NCBI RefSeq assembly: GCF_001562275.1 | Contig: NZ_CP014304.1 | Coordinates: 1,612,001-1,676,000, forward strand | Direction: 5' to 3' | From: Hymenobacter sp. PAMC 26628 | GTDB lineage: Bacteria > Bacteroidota > Bacteroidia > Cytophagales > Hymenobacteraceae | DNA: 64,000 nucleotides | In this document: piece by piece, positions 32,809 to 40,074 of the stretch | Numbering within the stretch: the first letter of the stretch is position 1 | How the letters are laid out: each line of letters begins with the position of its first letter | Translations under genes and position numbers: made by a program | The notes under the pieces: model-generated | Told to the model about the DNA's origin: nothing | The model's database searches: none | The model's input: only the letters and a program-made list of their open reading frames with translations

Positions 32809-33699
32809 TTATAACTTGCCAGTGCTGTTGTTCTGGTCGTTGTCCGCAGCGGTCCGGGCCCCGCCCAGGTTTTCCACCTCCACATCGGTTTTGCGCACCG
32901 TGTCGTGAATGGTTTCCACGCGTTCCGTGGCGGTTTTGTCAATGCTGACTTCGCCCACCACGCGGGCTTCCTTGGCCACAATGGCGCGCTCAGCTTGCTC
33001 CGTCACGCTGATTTCGCCTTCTTTGAAGGCCGCAAAATCGGCTTCGGTCGCGGGGCGGTTCACTTCGGTTCGGTTCACGTTCACGTGTTCTTCGCGCAGG
33101 CGCACGCTTTCTTCCACGGGGCGTTCGATGATGCGGGTGCGGATGCGGGCCCCGCCGGTCTGCTCTACGCGCTTGCCAACTTGCAAGTTCTCCTCGATGA
33201 TGTTCAGCTTCTGGGTACCCTCGGCGGTGCCGCCGGTGGCCTGTTGGGACCCGGTTGCCGCATAGCCCTGGGCGGCGGCCTGTTCGTGCACGTCGATGGC
33301 CCCGTACTGGTCGAGGATGTCGCGGGCGCGCTCGGCTTCGTCGGCCGTGGCGGCGTGCACCGTCACCACCGAGCTGCCGCTGCGGGCCACCCCGGTGTAT
33401 GCCCGGGCGTCGTCGTTGTCGTCGCCCCCGAACAGGTTACTAAAAAAGTTGCCGATGCCGTCCTCGGCCTTGCCGGCCACGCGGGCCGTGGCATCGACGG
33501 CGCCTTCGGTGGCCGTGCCGCTGGCGTTCTGGTAATCCGAGGGGTCGTTGTTGCGGCCGCTGCCGGCACTGCTGGCGCCGCCCTGCTGCTGGGCGGCCAC
33601 GTCTACGTTGTCGCGCACGAAGCCGGCGCTGGTGAGTTGCTGAACGGCCTGCTGCGCTTCGGAAGCGCTGTTGAATAAGCCTACTACTGTTTGTGCCAT
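32809..33699 (-). CDS. YsnF/AvaK-type stress protein (YflT-like N-domain plus DUF2382)
   Basis: This 296-residue protein has an N-terminal ~45 residues (VVGLFNSASEAQQAVQQL) of the general-stress YflT/17M type. A low-complexity Gly/Asn/Asp linker follows, then a ferredoxin-like stretch (SSVVTVHAATADEAERARDI). The C-terminal DUF2382 domain (about 180-285) has NIIEENLQVGKRVEQTGG and SVRLREEHVNVNRTEVNRP. DUF2382 proteins are stress-associated, with unknown biochemistry. The start at 33699 follows the family pattern; upstream in-frame codons are His/Phe-rich non-family sequence. A second DUF2382 gene lies 57 bp upstream on the same strand. Confidence 0.85.
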   Translation of the reverse strand: MAQTVVGLFNSASEAQQAVQQLTSAGFVRDNVDVAAQQQGGASSAGSGRNNDPSDYQNASGTATEGAVDATARVAGKAEDGIGNFFSNLFGGDDNDDARAYTGVARSGSSVVTVHAATADEAERARDILDQYGAIDVHEQAAAQGYAATGSQQATGGTAEGTQKLNIIEENLQVGKRVEQTGGARIRTRIIERPVEESVRLREEHVNVNRTEVNRPATEADFAAFKEGEISVTEQAERAIVAKEARVVGEVSIDKTATERVETIHDTVRKTDVEVENLGGARTAADNDQNNSTGKL

Positions 33700-33756
33700 G
33701 GGAAAGAAGGAATGGGAAAGGGGTGGAAAGTGGAAATGGTGAAAACGATGCAAGGA

Positions 33757-34185
33757 TTAGGGCTGCGGAGGTGCGGGCGGGGAGGCCACCCGCTCATAAT
33801 GCACTTCTTCGCGGCGCAGCTCCACGGTTTGGGGAGTGTGGGTGTTGAATACCTGCGTGCGCACGTGCAGTTCTTCGACCAGCAGCAGGCGCTTGGTGAT
33901 AACAATTTCTTCCCGTAATACGGGCAGGATCATCGTTTCGCCTTCGTAGCGGACGGCCGGAGCCTCGTCTACGTAGCGGTTCACGGCAATGCGCTGCACG
34001 TTGACTTGTTCCTCGCGCAAAGGCACGTCGACGGTTTGAGTTTCCGTGTGCACGTGCTTGCGGATGACCACGCGGCCCGTTTCCACCGTTTGTTTTTCCA
34101 GACGGACCACCTCCTCAATCACGGGCACCACTAAGGGCACGGAGTCGAGCGGTAGCGGGTCGTTGGTAGGATCGGTGGGCTGCAT
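33757..34185 (-). CDS. DUF2382 (YsnF/AvaK) domain protein
   Basis: This 142-residue protein is almost entirely a DUF2382 domain: VPVIEEVVRLEKQTVETGRV, VRIRKHV-like VVIRKHVHTETQTVD, VPLREEQVNVQRIAVNR and ILPVLREEIVITKRLLL. It lacks the N-terminal YflT-like part of its downstream partner. The two likely form one stress-induced operon. The start at 34185 is chosen because upstream in-frame sequence is Arg/Cys-rich and not family-like. Function of the domain is unknown. Confidence 0.85.
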   Translation of the reverse strand: MQPTDPTNDPLPLDSVPLVVPVIEEVVRLEKQTVETGRVVIRKHVHTETQTVDVPLREEQVNVQRIAVNRYVDEAPAVRYEGETMILPVLREEIVITKRLLLVEELHVRTQVFNTHTPQTVELRREEVHYERVASPPAPPQP

Positions 34186-34543
34186 AAGCGCTAGTACGCG
34201 GCGCCTACAGTAGGGTTCAGTAGTACGCGCAAAAGCCCGAATTATATTATAATCATCTGGCATTCATAATATTATCGAAATGTTAAGGCCCCAGGCAATA
34301 GGCCCCGGTGGGCGCGGCATTAGGTTTTGTAAATCAATTATTTGTTGTCGGTAAGGTGCTGCTTTTACTTCTCCTTTGGGCCCCACCGGTGGGTTCTAAC
34401 TGACTTTTTCGCGGTTACTTTTACTGGTTGCTTCGCTGCTCAGTTAATCAGCGGCTCAGTTTATTTAGCATATTATTTAGCATAACTCGTGATAGTCTGC
34501 ATTGCCGAAAAGCCCAGCCTTCTCTTTCAGCCCGCCGCCTTGC
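34186..34543. other. Divergent intergenic region with AT-rich promoter DNA and a copy of the topB start
   Basis: The stretch 34240-34350 upstream of the DUF2382 operon is AT-rich. On the plus side TTTATTTAGCATATTATTTAG (broken at 20) near 34460-34481 is a likely promoter zone. It is followed at 34488-34518 by a 31-bp near-copy of the topB gene start. That copy can be read as a short peptide start (MIVCIAEKPS) but runs into unrelated sequence. Confidence 0.5.
34488..34518 (+). repeat. 31-bp direct repeat, copy 1: duplicated 5' end of topB
   Basis: This segment matches 35556-35586 in 30 of 31 positions; the difference is an A at 34494 where the other copy has T. It would encode the first ten residues of topoisomerase III (VIVCIAEKPS with GTG start) but then diverges. 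Sequence to the left of the two copies is unrelated. Confidence 0.9.
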
Positions 34544-38128: not shown

Positions 38129-38150
38129 AATAGGGCCCCGGGGCCCTATT
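38129..38150. terminator. 22-bp perfect palindrome between topB and the Lgt-like gene
   Basis: The palindrome AATAGGGCCCC/GGGGCCCTATT has no spacer and overlaps the stop codon of the minus-strand gene (38146-38148). It lies 1 bp after the topB stop. It may end both convergent transcripts, but lacks a T-run. Confidence 0.6.
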
Positions 38151-40074
38151 TGAGGCCGATGCGGTAGTGCAGGCGCAGGCTGAGTTGGTGGCGCCGGCCA
38201 AAATCGGTAGCGGCGGTGGGCTCCAGGGCGAAGCCGCTGTTAGCCAGCCGGATATTGGCCGCCGCGAAGCCCATGGTGGTGCTGGCCGGACGCTCATTGC
38301 TGGCGATGTCGCCCACGGAAAAACTGTGTGGATCGACGCTGCTGAACGCCACGCCGGCTACTACGCTGCCGCCTTTGCGCGAACCCAGCCCCGAACCCAG
38401 GCCGACGCGGTAGAGGTAGTTGCCGACGCCACCCGCGCCGTAGCCCGCATCGGCCTGGGCAAACAGCAGCCAGCGGTTGCCTACCCACACCTGCAGGTCG
38501 GGCAGCAAGGGCTTGGCTTCCAGCGTCGAGTCATTCCGGTAGGCCTGGTTATTCAGCAAGCGGCCCGCGTGGAAGCCCACGTGGTAACCCACGCTGATGT
38601 TCCGTATGGTTTGAAAATTGCCTTCTACATAAGGGTTGACATCCAATAGGTTGTACGTGCGGGTGCTCGTTGGGGCGCTGGTCTGCAACGACCCACTGCC
38701 GGGCGTTTGCGGCGCAAAGGCTACCCGGTCGGTGCCGCCCCACACAGCCACGCCCACGGTGCCTAATGGGCTGTTGCCTTCGGGCTTGAGTTGCACCGCC
38801 ACCTGCCCGCCCACGGTTTGGTAGCGGTGCAGGTAGCCATCGCGCGAGGGGGCCACCGGGTAGCTGCCTCCCCCGCCGCAGCCCCCGCCGCTGGTAGTGG
38901 CGTTGTAGTCAAAGTCTTGGTCGAAAGTCCCCTGAGACGCGCCTACCGAAAAATCAATGGACCGTACCGAATCCTGACGTGGGGCCGGAGCCTGGCTCAT
39001 CAGCACGAGTAAGGCCAGGGCCCCGGCGAAGGCCAGCCGGGGCTGCCCGCGCCACCCGGCGGCGGCCAGCGCCGGCCACCAGGCCACCGCTTCGGCCAGC
39101 AGCAGGGCCCCCAGCATCACTTGCAGCACCCGAAACTCGGCCCCGGTGAGGGCGTGCGGGGCCAGCGCGGCCGTTAGGGCCAGCAGGGCGGCGGCCCCGG
39201 CCAGCTGCCGCGCCGGCTGCGGCGCGCCGGGCGCGGCCGCCCGGGCCACCGGGAACACCGTGCCCCACCACAACAGCAACGCTGCGCCGGCCAAGTGCAG
39301 CAGCCCTACTCCCAGTACGCCCCACTGAATGGCCAGCAGTCGCACGCCGCCCAGCGCCAGCGGCTGGGCCCCCAGGGTTTGGCTGGCCGGGTCGCGCCAC
39401 GCGCACAGCCCGCCCCAGGCCAGCAACAGGGCCCCCGTGCCCAACAGGTAGCGCGTGCCGGCCGGCCAGGCGCGGCGGCGCGTGGCCCACGTGGCCCCGG
39501 CCAGCGCCACGCACAGCAGCAACCCGTACAGCTGCGTGGGCACCACGGGCAGCGCGTGCGGGGCCCCGGCGGGCAACAGGCCCCGCGCCACCTGGGCAGC
39601 GTAGGGCCCCGTGCCGGGTCCGAAGCACAGCCCCAGACCGCTGCTGGCCAGCTCGCCCCAGCAGCAGCCGGCTGCCAGGCAGCCCAGACACTGCACGGCC
39701 AGCCCCACCGCCAGGGGCCCCACAAAGGCATCGAATGCCGACCAGCCCAGGCCCAGCCACCGCCGCAACGCCAACAGCACCAGGCTGCTGGCCGCGATGC
39801 CGCCCAGCGCCGAGCGCACCGGGTAGGCCCCCAGGTCGGCCCCGCCCTGCCACAGCGCCGGCCAGTCGGCCGGCGGGAGCACCACCAGCTTGCAGCCCAC
39901 CACGAAGGCCAGCAGCGTGGCGGCCTGCATCAGCAGCCAGGGGCGCAGGGAGAAGCCGCGCCGCCGGCCTTCCAGCAGCAGCAATAGTTGATAGGTGGCC
40001 ACGGCCAGCAGGTAGCAGGCGGTGTAATGGCCAGGCCGAAAAACGGCGGGCAGTTCGAACGTATAAAGGGGCAT
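38146..40074 (-). CDS. Lgt-like polytopic membrane protein fused to a C-terminal beta-rich domain
   Basis: In this 642-residue protein, residues 1-360 hold about 8-9 hydrophobic segments with features of prolipoprotein diacylglyceryl transferase-like proteins: AVQCLGCLAAGCCWGE (126-141), comparable to the GCFxxGCCYG variant, and VVPTQLYGLL (177-186), comparable to the HPTQLYEAL segment. Residues 361-642 are different: PAPRQDSVRSIDFSVG, a Gly/Cys patch (GGGCGGGGS, about 396-404), then alternating beta-like segments ending LSLRLHYRIGLK, as in small barrel or porin-like domains. The fusion would place the second half in the periplasm or outer envelope. Whether the Lgt part is catalytic is doubtful: I did not find the conserved Lgt R/H pattern clearly. 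Function is unknown. Confidence 0.65.
   Translation of the reverse strand: MPLYTFELPAVFRPGHYTACYLLAVATYQLLLLLEGRRRGFSLRPWLLMQAATLLAFVVGCKLVVLPPADWPALWQGGADLGAYPVRSALGGIAASSLVLLALRRWLGLGWSAFDAFVGPLAVGLAVQCLGCLAAGCCWGELASSGLGLCFGPGTGPYAAQVARGLLPAGAPHALPVVPTQLYGLLLCVALAGATWATRRRAWPAGTRYLLGTGALLLAWGGLCAWRDPASQTLGAQPLALGGVRLLAIQWGVLGVGLLHLAGAALLLWWGTVFPVARAAAPGAPQPARQLAGAAALLALTAALAPHALTGAEFRVLQVMLGALLLAEAVAWWPALAAAGWRGQPRLAFAGALALLVLMSQAPAPRQDSVRSIDFSVGASQGTFDQDFDYNATTSGGGCGGGGSYPVAPSRDGYLHRYQTVGGQVAVQLKPEGNSPLGTVGVAVWGGTDRVAFAPQTPGSGSLQTSAPTSTRTYNLLDVNPYVEGNFQTIRNISVGYHVGFHAGRLLNNQAYRNDSTLEAKPLLPDLQVWVGNRWLLFAQADAGYGAGGVGNYLYRVGLGSGLGSRKGGSVVAGVAFSSVDPHSFSVGDIASNERPASTTMGFAAANIRLANSGFALEPTAATDFGRRHQLSLRLHYRIGLK

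Follow-up and report, generated by a model that had tools for sequence, protein, structure and literature searches.

A conserved single-gene fusion of an Lgt-like membrane domain and a predicted outer-membrane beta-barrel with an invariant loop cysteine in Hymenobacter

The window analyzed here, a stretch of 64,000 nucleotides from Hymenobacter sp. PAMC 26628, contains on its minus strand an uninterrupted open reading frame (38146..40074; ATG at 40074, stop at 38146) that encodes 642 aa plus the stop codon and is a conserved single-gene fusion of an Lgt-like half and a predicted outer-membrane barrel. When its own genome was searched with the fusion protein, one match was obtained. In the genus sample the protein was matched in 66 of 101 genomes, in most of them as an uninterrupted frame of some 600-700 codons, and in a family-wide draw in 40 of 120 genomes; Hymenobacter coccineus, H. 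nivis and H. caeli are three of the close relatives. Among 296 genomes drawn across the phylum, one full fusion lay outside the window's family, in a genome of another class (G664). Its genus-mate G755 carries both halves flanking an assembly gap, and no further fusions were seen among 114 genomes of the order to which these two belong. The barrel profile matched 87 of 120 genus genomes and, in an order-wide draw, 28 of 291 genomes, every one of them within the window's own family. An intact N-half of the fusion subfamily was always found beside a barrel (none was seen without), and barrels alone do occur.

For residue conservation we used 66 full-length rows, defined as distinct homologous ORFs of more than 500 aa in the retrieved loci. 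BLAST matches without a retrieved locus are excluded from this count; L039-L043, which are Lgt-like only, were dropped, as were identical copies and a copy truncated at the locus end. The comparison of barrel rows required at least 180 aligned residues and comprised 71 fused and 18 standalone rows, the latter consisting of three broken fusions (L044, L046, L055), one barrel cut by a contig end (L179, left out of the barrel tree), two rows with the loop sequence CTFC and 12 with a Cys-less loop. The shorter standalone barrel rows L158, L159, L161, L178 and L180 were inspected by eye.

We consider it extremely improbable that two adjacent genes were fused here by a sequencing or assembly error. 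Single genomes do show the halves apart, being out of frame in G005, interrupted by an in-frame stop in G123 and split by contig ends in G011 or by the assembly gap in G755, but the 66 open full-length homologues among the retrieved loci and the additional one in another class led us to reject a joining artefact. The fusion described by the first-pass annotation is borne out by this conserved open frame and recurs in other Bacteroidota: across Hymenobacter, in its sister genera and in a single genome from a different class. That annotation had named homologues with the two parts always in separate genes as an outcome that would speak against it, and this outcome did not occur. Literature searches, in which full text was covered only in part, returned no description of such a fusion, and as far as the literature was searched the combination of an Lgt fold with an outer-membrane barrel was not found in print. 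The subject of PMC12636315, in the sections accessible, is lipidated RiPPs and not the fusion protein.

Residues 1-285 (39220..40074, minus strand) form the Lgt-like core with seven predicted transmembrane helices (residues 14-38, 43-63, 89-106, 112-135, 180-197, 207-226 and 248-273 in the AlphaFold2 model). LGT (PF01790) is the sole Pfam domain above cut-off in the fusion protein (residues 17-201, E 1.8e-7, 31.2 bits versus a cut-off of 24.9) and matches 42 of 42 N-halves at E <= 0.001; NCBIfam gave just a sub-threshold match to the Lgt equivalog. A profile of the N-half matched E. coli Lgt (5azb) in the PDB with E 2.5e-11, and the AlphaFold2 model of the full 642-aa chain, computed with the family alignment (mean pLDDT 84.8), resembles the same structure (VIA Z 17.2, 260 aligned residues, rmsd 4.1; Foldseek E 3.5e-6). 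The core is followed by three extra helices, TM8-10, in residues 286-360 (38995..39219, minus strand; helices 287-308, 311-338 and 345-359), the last of which resembles an internal signal peptide as well. The first-pass annotation had assigned about 360 residues to the Lgt-like part. The likeness holds by Pfam, profile and predicted fold, so that the outcome of no similarity to Lgt did not occur, but the core covers about residues 1-285 and the remainder consists of the extra helices. From the model and the loop charges we infer a periplasmic N-terminus and ten helices, which would bring the barrel part out on the periplasmic side.

The reaction known for the Lgt fold is the S-diacylglycerylation of cysteine, and the E. 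coli Lgt mutants R143A/E/K, E151A/Q, H103A/N/Q/R/Y and Y26A/F/Q are inactive according to the accessible sections of PMC4728403. In the profile alignment with 5azb, the tyrosine alone is retained among the equivalents of R143, E151, H103 and Y26 (C129, C137, L90 and Y17). Over the 66 rows, the H103 equivalent is L, V, I or F in all, the E151 equivalent is Cys in all, and the R143 equivalent is C in 47, G in 12, R in 6 and S in 1. N146 of E. coli Lgt (5azb, 5azc; PF01790) is replaced by C132, while R246 is retained as R227. The window copy has in addition W220 in place of R239 (R in 61 and W in 5 of the 66 rows) and C224 in place of E243 (E in 49 of 66), and the fusion differs from E. coli Lgt by carrying the three extra helices and the barrel on the same chain. 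A separate canonical lgt is present in the same genome (G000:C2:862214-863068, E 3.5e-68). Judged from these replacements, the Lgt half cannot be counted as a canonical Lgt, and because the equivalents of H103, R143 and E151 are lost, in the window copy together with those of R239 and E243, the chemistry of Lgt is not simply transferable to it. Standard Lgt chemistry, one reading of the earlier suggestion that the N-half might still transfer lipid, is unsupported in view of these losses, and we found no evidence supporting the scramblase-like role that had also been suggested.

Invariant positions in the 66 fusions include W46, G60, W71, D115, Q128, C132, C137, C138, Q161, Q250, E313, L321, Q361 and C399. 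C132, C137 and C138 (39661..39681, minus strand) lie at the Lgt signature motif (GCLAAGCCWG), where helix 4 is predicted to end on the periplasmic side, and E313 lies in the region of the extra helices. The fusion of G664 retains C132, C137, C138, Q250, E313, Q361 and C399 and is without W71, D115, Q128 and Q161. Helix ends and loop charges would place C132, C137, C138, Q250, E313 and Q361 at the periplasmic side of the membrane part.

The GCxxAGCC (CC) motif also occurs at the signature position of standalone Lgt-like proteins from Bacteroidota, Acidobacteriota and other phyla (L146-L150, L164, L040-L043). These CC-type proteins differ from the fusion in that they are mostly about 257-320 aa long and lack the barrel, and in the examples inspected the Arg before GCxxAGCC is retained; we know of no function assigned to them. 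Since the cysteine motif is found without an attached barrel, it need not serve Cys399, the loop cysteine of the barrel described below. A 651-aa ORF of G244 (L157:3702-5657) joins phospholipid methyltransferase (PEMT), PAP2 and CC-type LGT domains, hinting at a lipid chemistry of the CC type. A second group of Lgt-like paralogues of about 246-331 aa in these bacteria is without the CC pair (L152:4926-5699, E 2.5e-26 versus LGT, with similar ORFs in L151, L153-L156, L162 and L163), and a CC-type Lgt-like ORF in a MAG (L039:3401-4831) has at its end a series of near-repeats with many Glu, Lys and Thr residues.

Residues 372-642 (38149..38961, minus strand) are predicted to form a 12-stranded outer-membrane beta-barrel, a view that draws on the AlphaFold2 model, fold matches, strand faces and an island of sequence divergence. 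The whole-chain model places 12 strands in residues 372-640, and the barrel folded alone again has 12 strands (pLDDT 86.1, pTM 0.82); in 10 of the 12, the polar and hydrophobic faces differ by more than 1 unit. Outer-membrane barrels were matched by residues 365-641 of the whole-chain model and top the fold list of the barrel alone, where matches less than 1 Z unit apart count as tied: the NalP translocator (Z 14.3, 205 aligned, rmsd 4.3) and KdgM (Z 13.8, 160 aligned, rmsd 3.4) are best, and the COG4313 channel (Z 12.0, 220 aligned, rmsd 5.2) and LpxR (Z 11.7, 189 aligned, rmsd 4.3) are also listed, the likeness being in each case one of fold alone. No sequence relationship was found to these known 12-stranded barrels or to the EspP translocator domain, from which the fusion barrel differs by having no passenger domain and by its conserved loop cysteine, and searches of the PDB and Pfam with the barrel profile returned no convincing sequence relatives (best E 0.52). 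Standalone relatives of the barrel have signal-peptide-like starts, as judged by eye, which bears indirectly on the predicted outer-membrane location. The barrel-like C-half of the earlier annotation is supported by the 12-stranded models and their fold matches.

The barrel-coding DNA is 56-84% identical to that of three close relatives in 150-base windows, versus about 86-94% for the Lgt-like part and 86-98% for most of topB, so that 38146-38961 stands out as a sharp island of divergence between more conserved neighbors. Pairwise rates among five close relatives follow the same division, with dN 0.04-0.07 versus dS of about 0.3 for the N-half (the latter also for the Lgt core) and dN 0.11-0.32 versus dS 0.63-1.07 for the C-half. 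The rates of residue change are low in both halves, which argues against decay of either. The island suggests recombination or diversifying selection and fits a surface-exposed barrel that is exchanged or diversifying.

Within this variable domain, the first loop carries Cys399 (38878..38880, minus strand) inside the patch GGGCGGGGS. Cys399 is present in 66/66 full-length fusions, and loop 1 holds one Cys in 71/71 fused rows, preceded by Gly in 63 and followed by Ser or Gly in 67. A chance or low-complexity origin of the patch was rejected because the cysteine is invariant in an otherwise strongly variable barrel. A barrel without an Lgt-like domain of the fusion subfamily was found in 12 genomes, and in 11 of them the loop cysteine is absent. 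The exception is G098 with the loop CTFC; standalone barrels with two loop cysteines each are found in G098, which is without the Lgt-like domain, and in G086, and in the barrel tree the two CTFC rows come out as sister to a fused row. One group of Cys-less standalone barrels (L061, L049 and L070) is nested in the fused clade with support of 100/94 and 100/97, and at least there the cysteine was therefore lost along with the Lgt-like domain; a second Cys-less group sits on a long branch and is weakly placed. The number of independent separations behind the association of Cys399 with the fusion is thus small, perhaps two or three and not dozens.

These data bear on the earlier proposal of an N-half that could act on the C-half of the same protein. 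An invariant cysteine that tracks the Lgt-like domain is in favor of it, but the canonical form of such a reaction, a PG-dependent diacylglyceryl transfer to the C-terminal domain by the standard mechanism, is unsupported and in our estimate very unlikely. The LGT profile and fold matches speak for it, as does the faintly lipobox-like context of Cys399 with Gly at -1 and Ser/Gly at +1. Opposed to this are the replaced equivalents of H103, R143 and E151, whose mutation abolishes activity in E. coli (PMC4728403, accessible sections), and the separate canonical lgt of the genome. A lipobox as in substrates of signal peptidase II is absent: instead of following directly after a hydrophobic segment, Cys399 lies 38 residues past Gln361 (30-49 over the 71 rows), and position -3 is S, G or N in 48 of 71.

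Thiol chemistry without lipid transfer was considered as another use of the cysteines. The barrel part holds a single Cys in 57 of 71 fused rows, so in those the Lgt-like domain cannot be an enzyme that introduces a disulfide within the barrel. A relay or assembly checkpoint, in which the Cys pair of the Lgt-like domain would form a transient mixed disulfide with Cys399 that holds the unfolded barrel or senses the periplasmic redox state, would account for four invariant cysteines spread over both halves and for a window clade that retains them yet loses more of the Lgt hydrogen-bond residues. We nevertheless regard it as distinctly unlikely, given a fold that belongs to a lipid-handling enzyme and not to any known oxidoreductase and given the single cysteine of most barrel parts.

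The junction of the two halves is marked by Gln361 (38992..38994, minus strand), which is invariant in 66/66 fusions and retained in G664. In most rows it is a candidate site for Bacteroidetes signal peptidase I, for which a Q-rule with Gln at +1 is described in the accessible sections of PMC5837995 and PMC10653852. The preceding residue is S in 41, A in 14 and N in 11 of the 66 rows, with Leu (40 rows) and Phe (11 rows) among the residues at position -3; in a crude control with other exported ORFs of the same loci, A-x-A before Gln was favored. In G664 and G755 the equivalent of Gln361 follows a Phe, which weakens a Q-rule signal peptide as the sole explanation of its conservation while leaving it as one possibility, and as it is kept there it may belong to the Lgt-like site. 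Only 12 residues separate the end of TM10 (residue 359) from strand 1 (residue 372). A linker of this length is too short to span the periplasm, so a barrel located in the outer membrane would have to be released, and on geometry cleavage is likely, with the surroundings of residue 361 as its candidate place. A membrane protein and an exported protein on one chain, split at an internal signal peptide, are known from the cytochrome b/c1 precursor FbcH of Bradyrhizobium. The same arrangement is proposed for the fusion, from which FbcH differs in its unrelated domains and in that its exported part remains at the inner membrane.

In many copies the fusion gene lies between a DUF2867 epimerase gene and topB. 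In G169, G104, G436 and G029, the same slot is occupied by a standalone barrel with its own N-terminal signal-peptide-like start (in G104, G113 and G169, epimerase and topB were identified by eye from ORF starts). G113 has one extra ORF between barrel and topB, in G038 the barrel adjoins topB and the epimerase match is short, in G048 the barrel is found beyond the epimerase, and G044 and G049 carry the fusion and a standalone barrel in tandem. Because other barrels occupy the slot, we rejected the neighborhood as a clue to function and take it as a conserved position only. The neighborhood differs in L044, L052, L053 and L054, where a conserved ORF of 483-519 aa with a signal-peptide-like start lies directly upstream; elsewhere in the window, a DUF2382 gene (32809-33753) adjoins a similar-looking small ORF (33757-34263).

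The standalone signal-peptide barrels in the epimerase-topB slot, the fit of Gln361 to the Q-rule and the loss of residues essential in E. coli Lgt would all agree with an arrangement that is chiefly for delivery. TM10 would then serve as internal signal peptide and the Lgt-like half as a catalytically inactive anchor or chaperone, and the two products would have jobs that are unrelated or loosely linked. An inactive domain is hard to reconcile with the strict retention of C132, C137, C138, Q250 and E313 in 66/66 fusions and in another class, and the linkage of Cys399 to the Lgt-like domain would be left unexplained; we judge this arrangement unlikely.

The reading that we prefer, tentatively and at somewhat less than even probability, is that a diverged Lgt-fold enzyme modifies Cys399 in cis and that the barrel is then released. 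Points against it are the missing essential residues of Lgt, the CC motif in standalone proteins, the lack of a lipobox around Cys399, the standalone barrels with two loop cysteines in G098 and G086, the irregular residues before Gln361 and the few independent events behind the association of Cys399 with the fusion. Observed were the fusion, its two predicted folds, the invariant residues and the joint occurrence of the loop cysteine and the Lgt-like domain; the scheme that we infer (its topology, the cleavage, the modification, the identity of the lipid and the outer-membrane location) would run as follows. One chain would yield a domain of Lgt fold in the inner membrane and a beta-barrel in the outer membrane. 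While the barrel is still tethered, the flexible, Gly/Ser-flanked Cys399 of loop 1 would be offered to the Lgt-like domain at its periplasmic mouth, the place to which the topology would also assign C132, C137, C138, Q250, E313 and Q361. The domain would modify the Cys399 thiol, S-lipidation or S-acylation being the most likely form, and the domain's cysteines would stand in for the lost catalytic residues of Lgt. Proteolysis near residue 361 would then free the barrel, which would insert into the outer membrane. The more specific form of this scheme, a self-modifying envelope polyprotein whose cysteine-based Lgt-fold transferase lipidates an internal loop cysteine of the barrel on the same chain before releasing it, is possible but on the doubtful side.

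If the Lgt-like domain modifies Cys399, the fusion would represent a second way in which bacteria put lipid or acyl groups on exported proteins, one that needs no lipobox and is aimed at the loop of a beta-barrel. In the more specific form, a dedicated enzyme would lipidate an outer-membrane barrel at an internal cysteine outside any lipobox. With enzyme and candidate substrate on one chain, the widespread CC-type Lgt-like proteins would also gain a function that can be tested for the first time. Even if no lipid is involved, encoding a protein of the inner membrane and a barrel of the outer membrane as one chain is an unusual way of producing a pair of envelope proteins.
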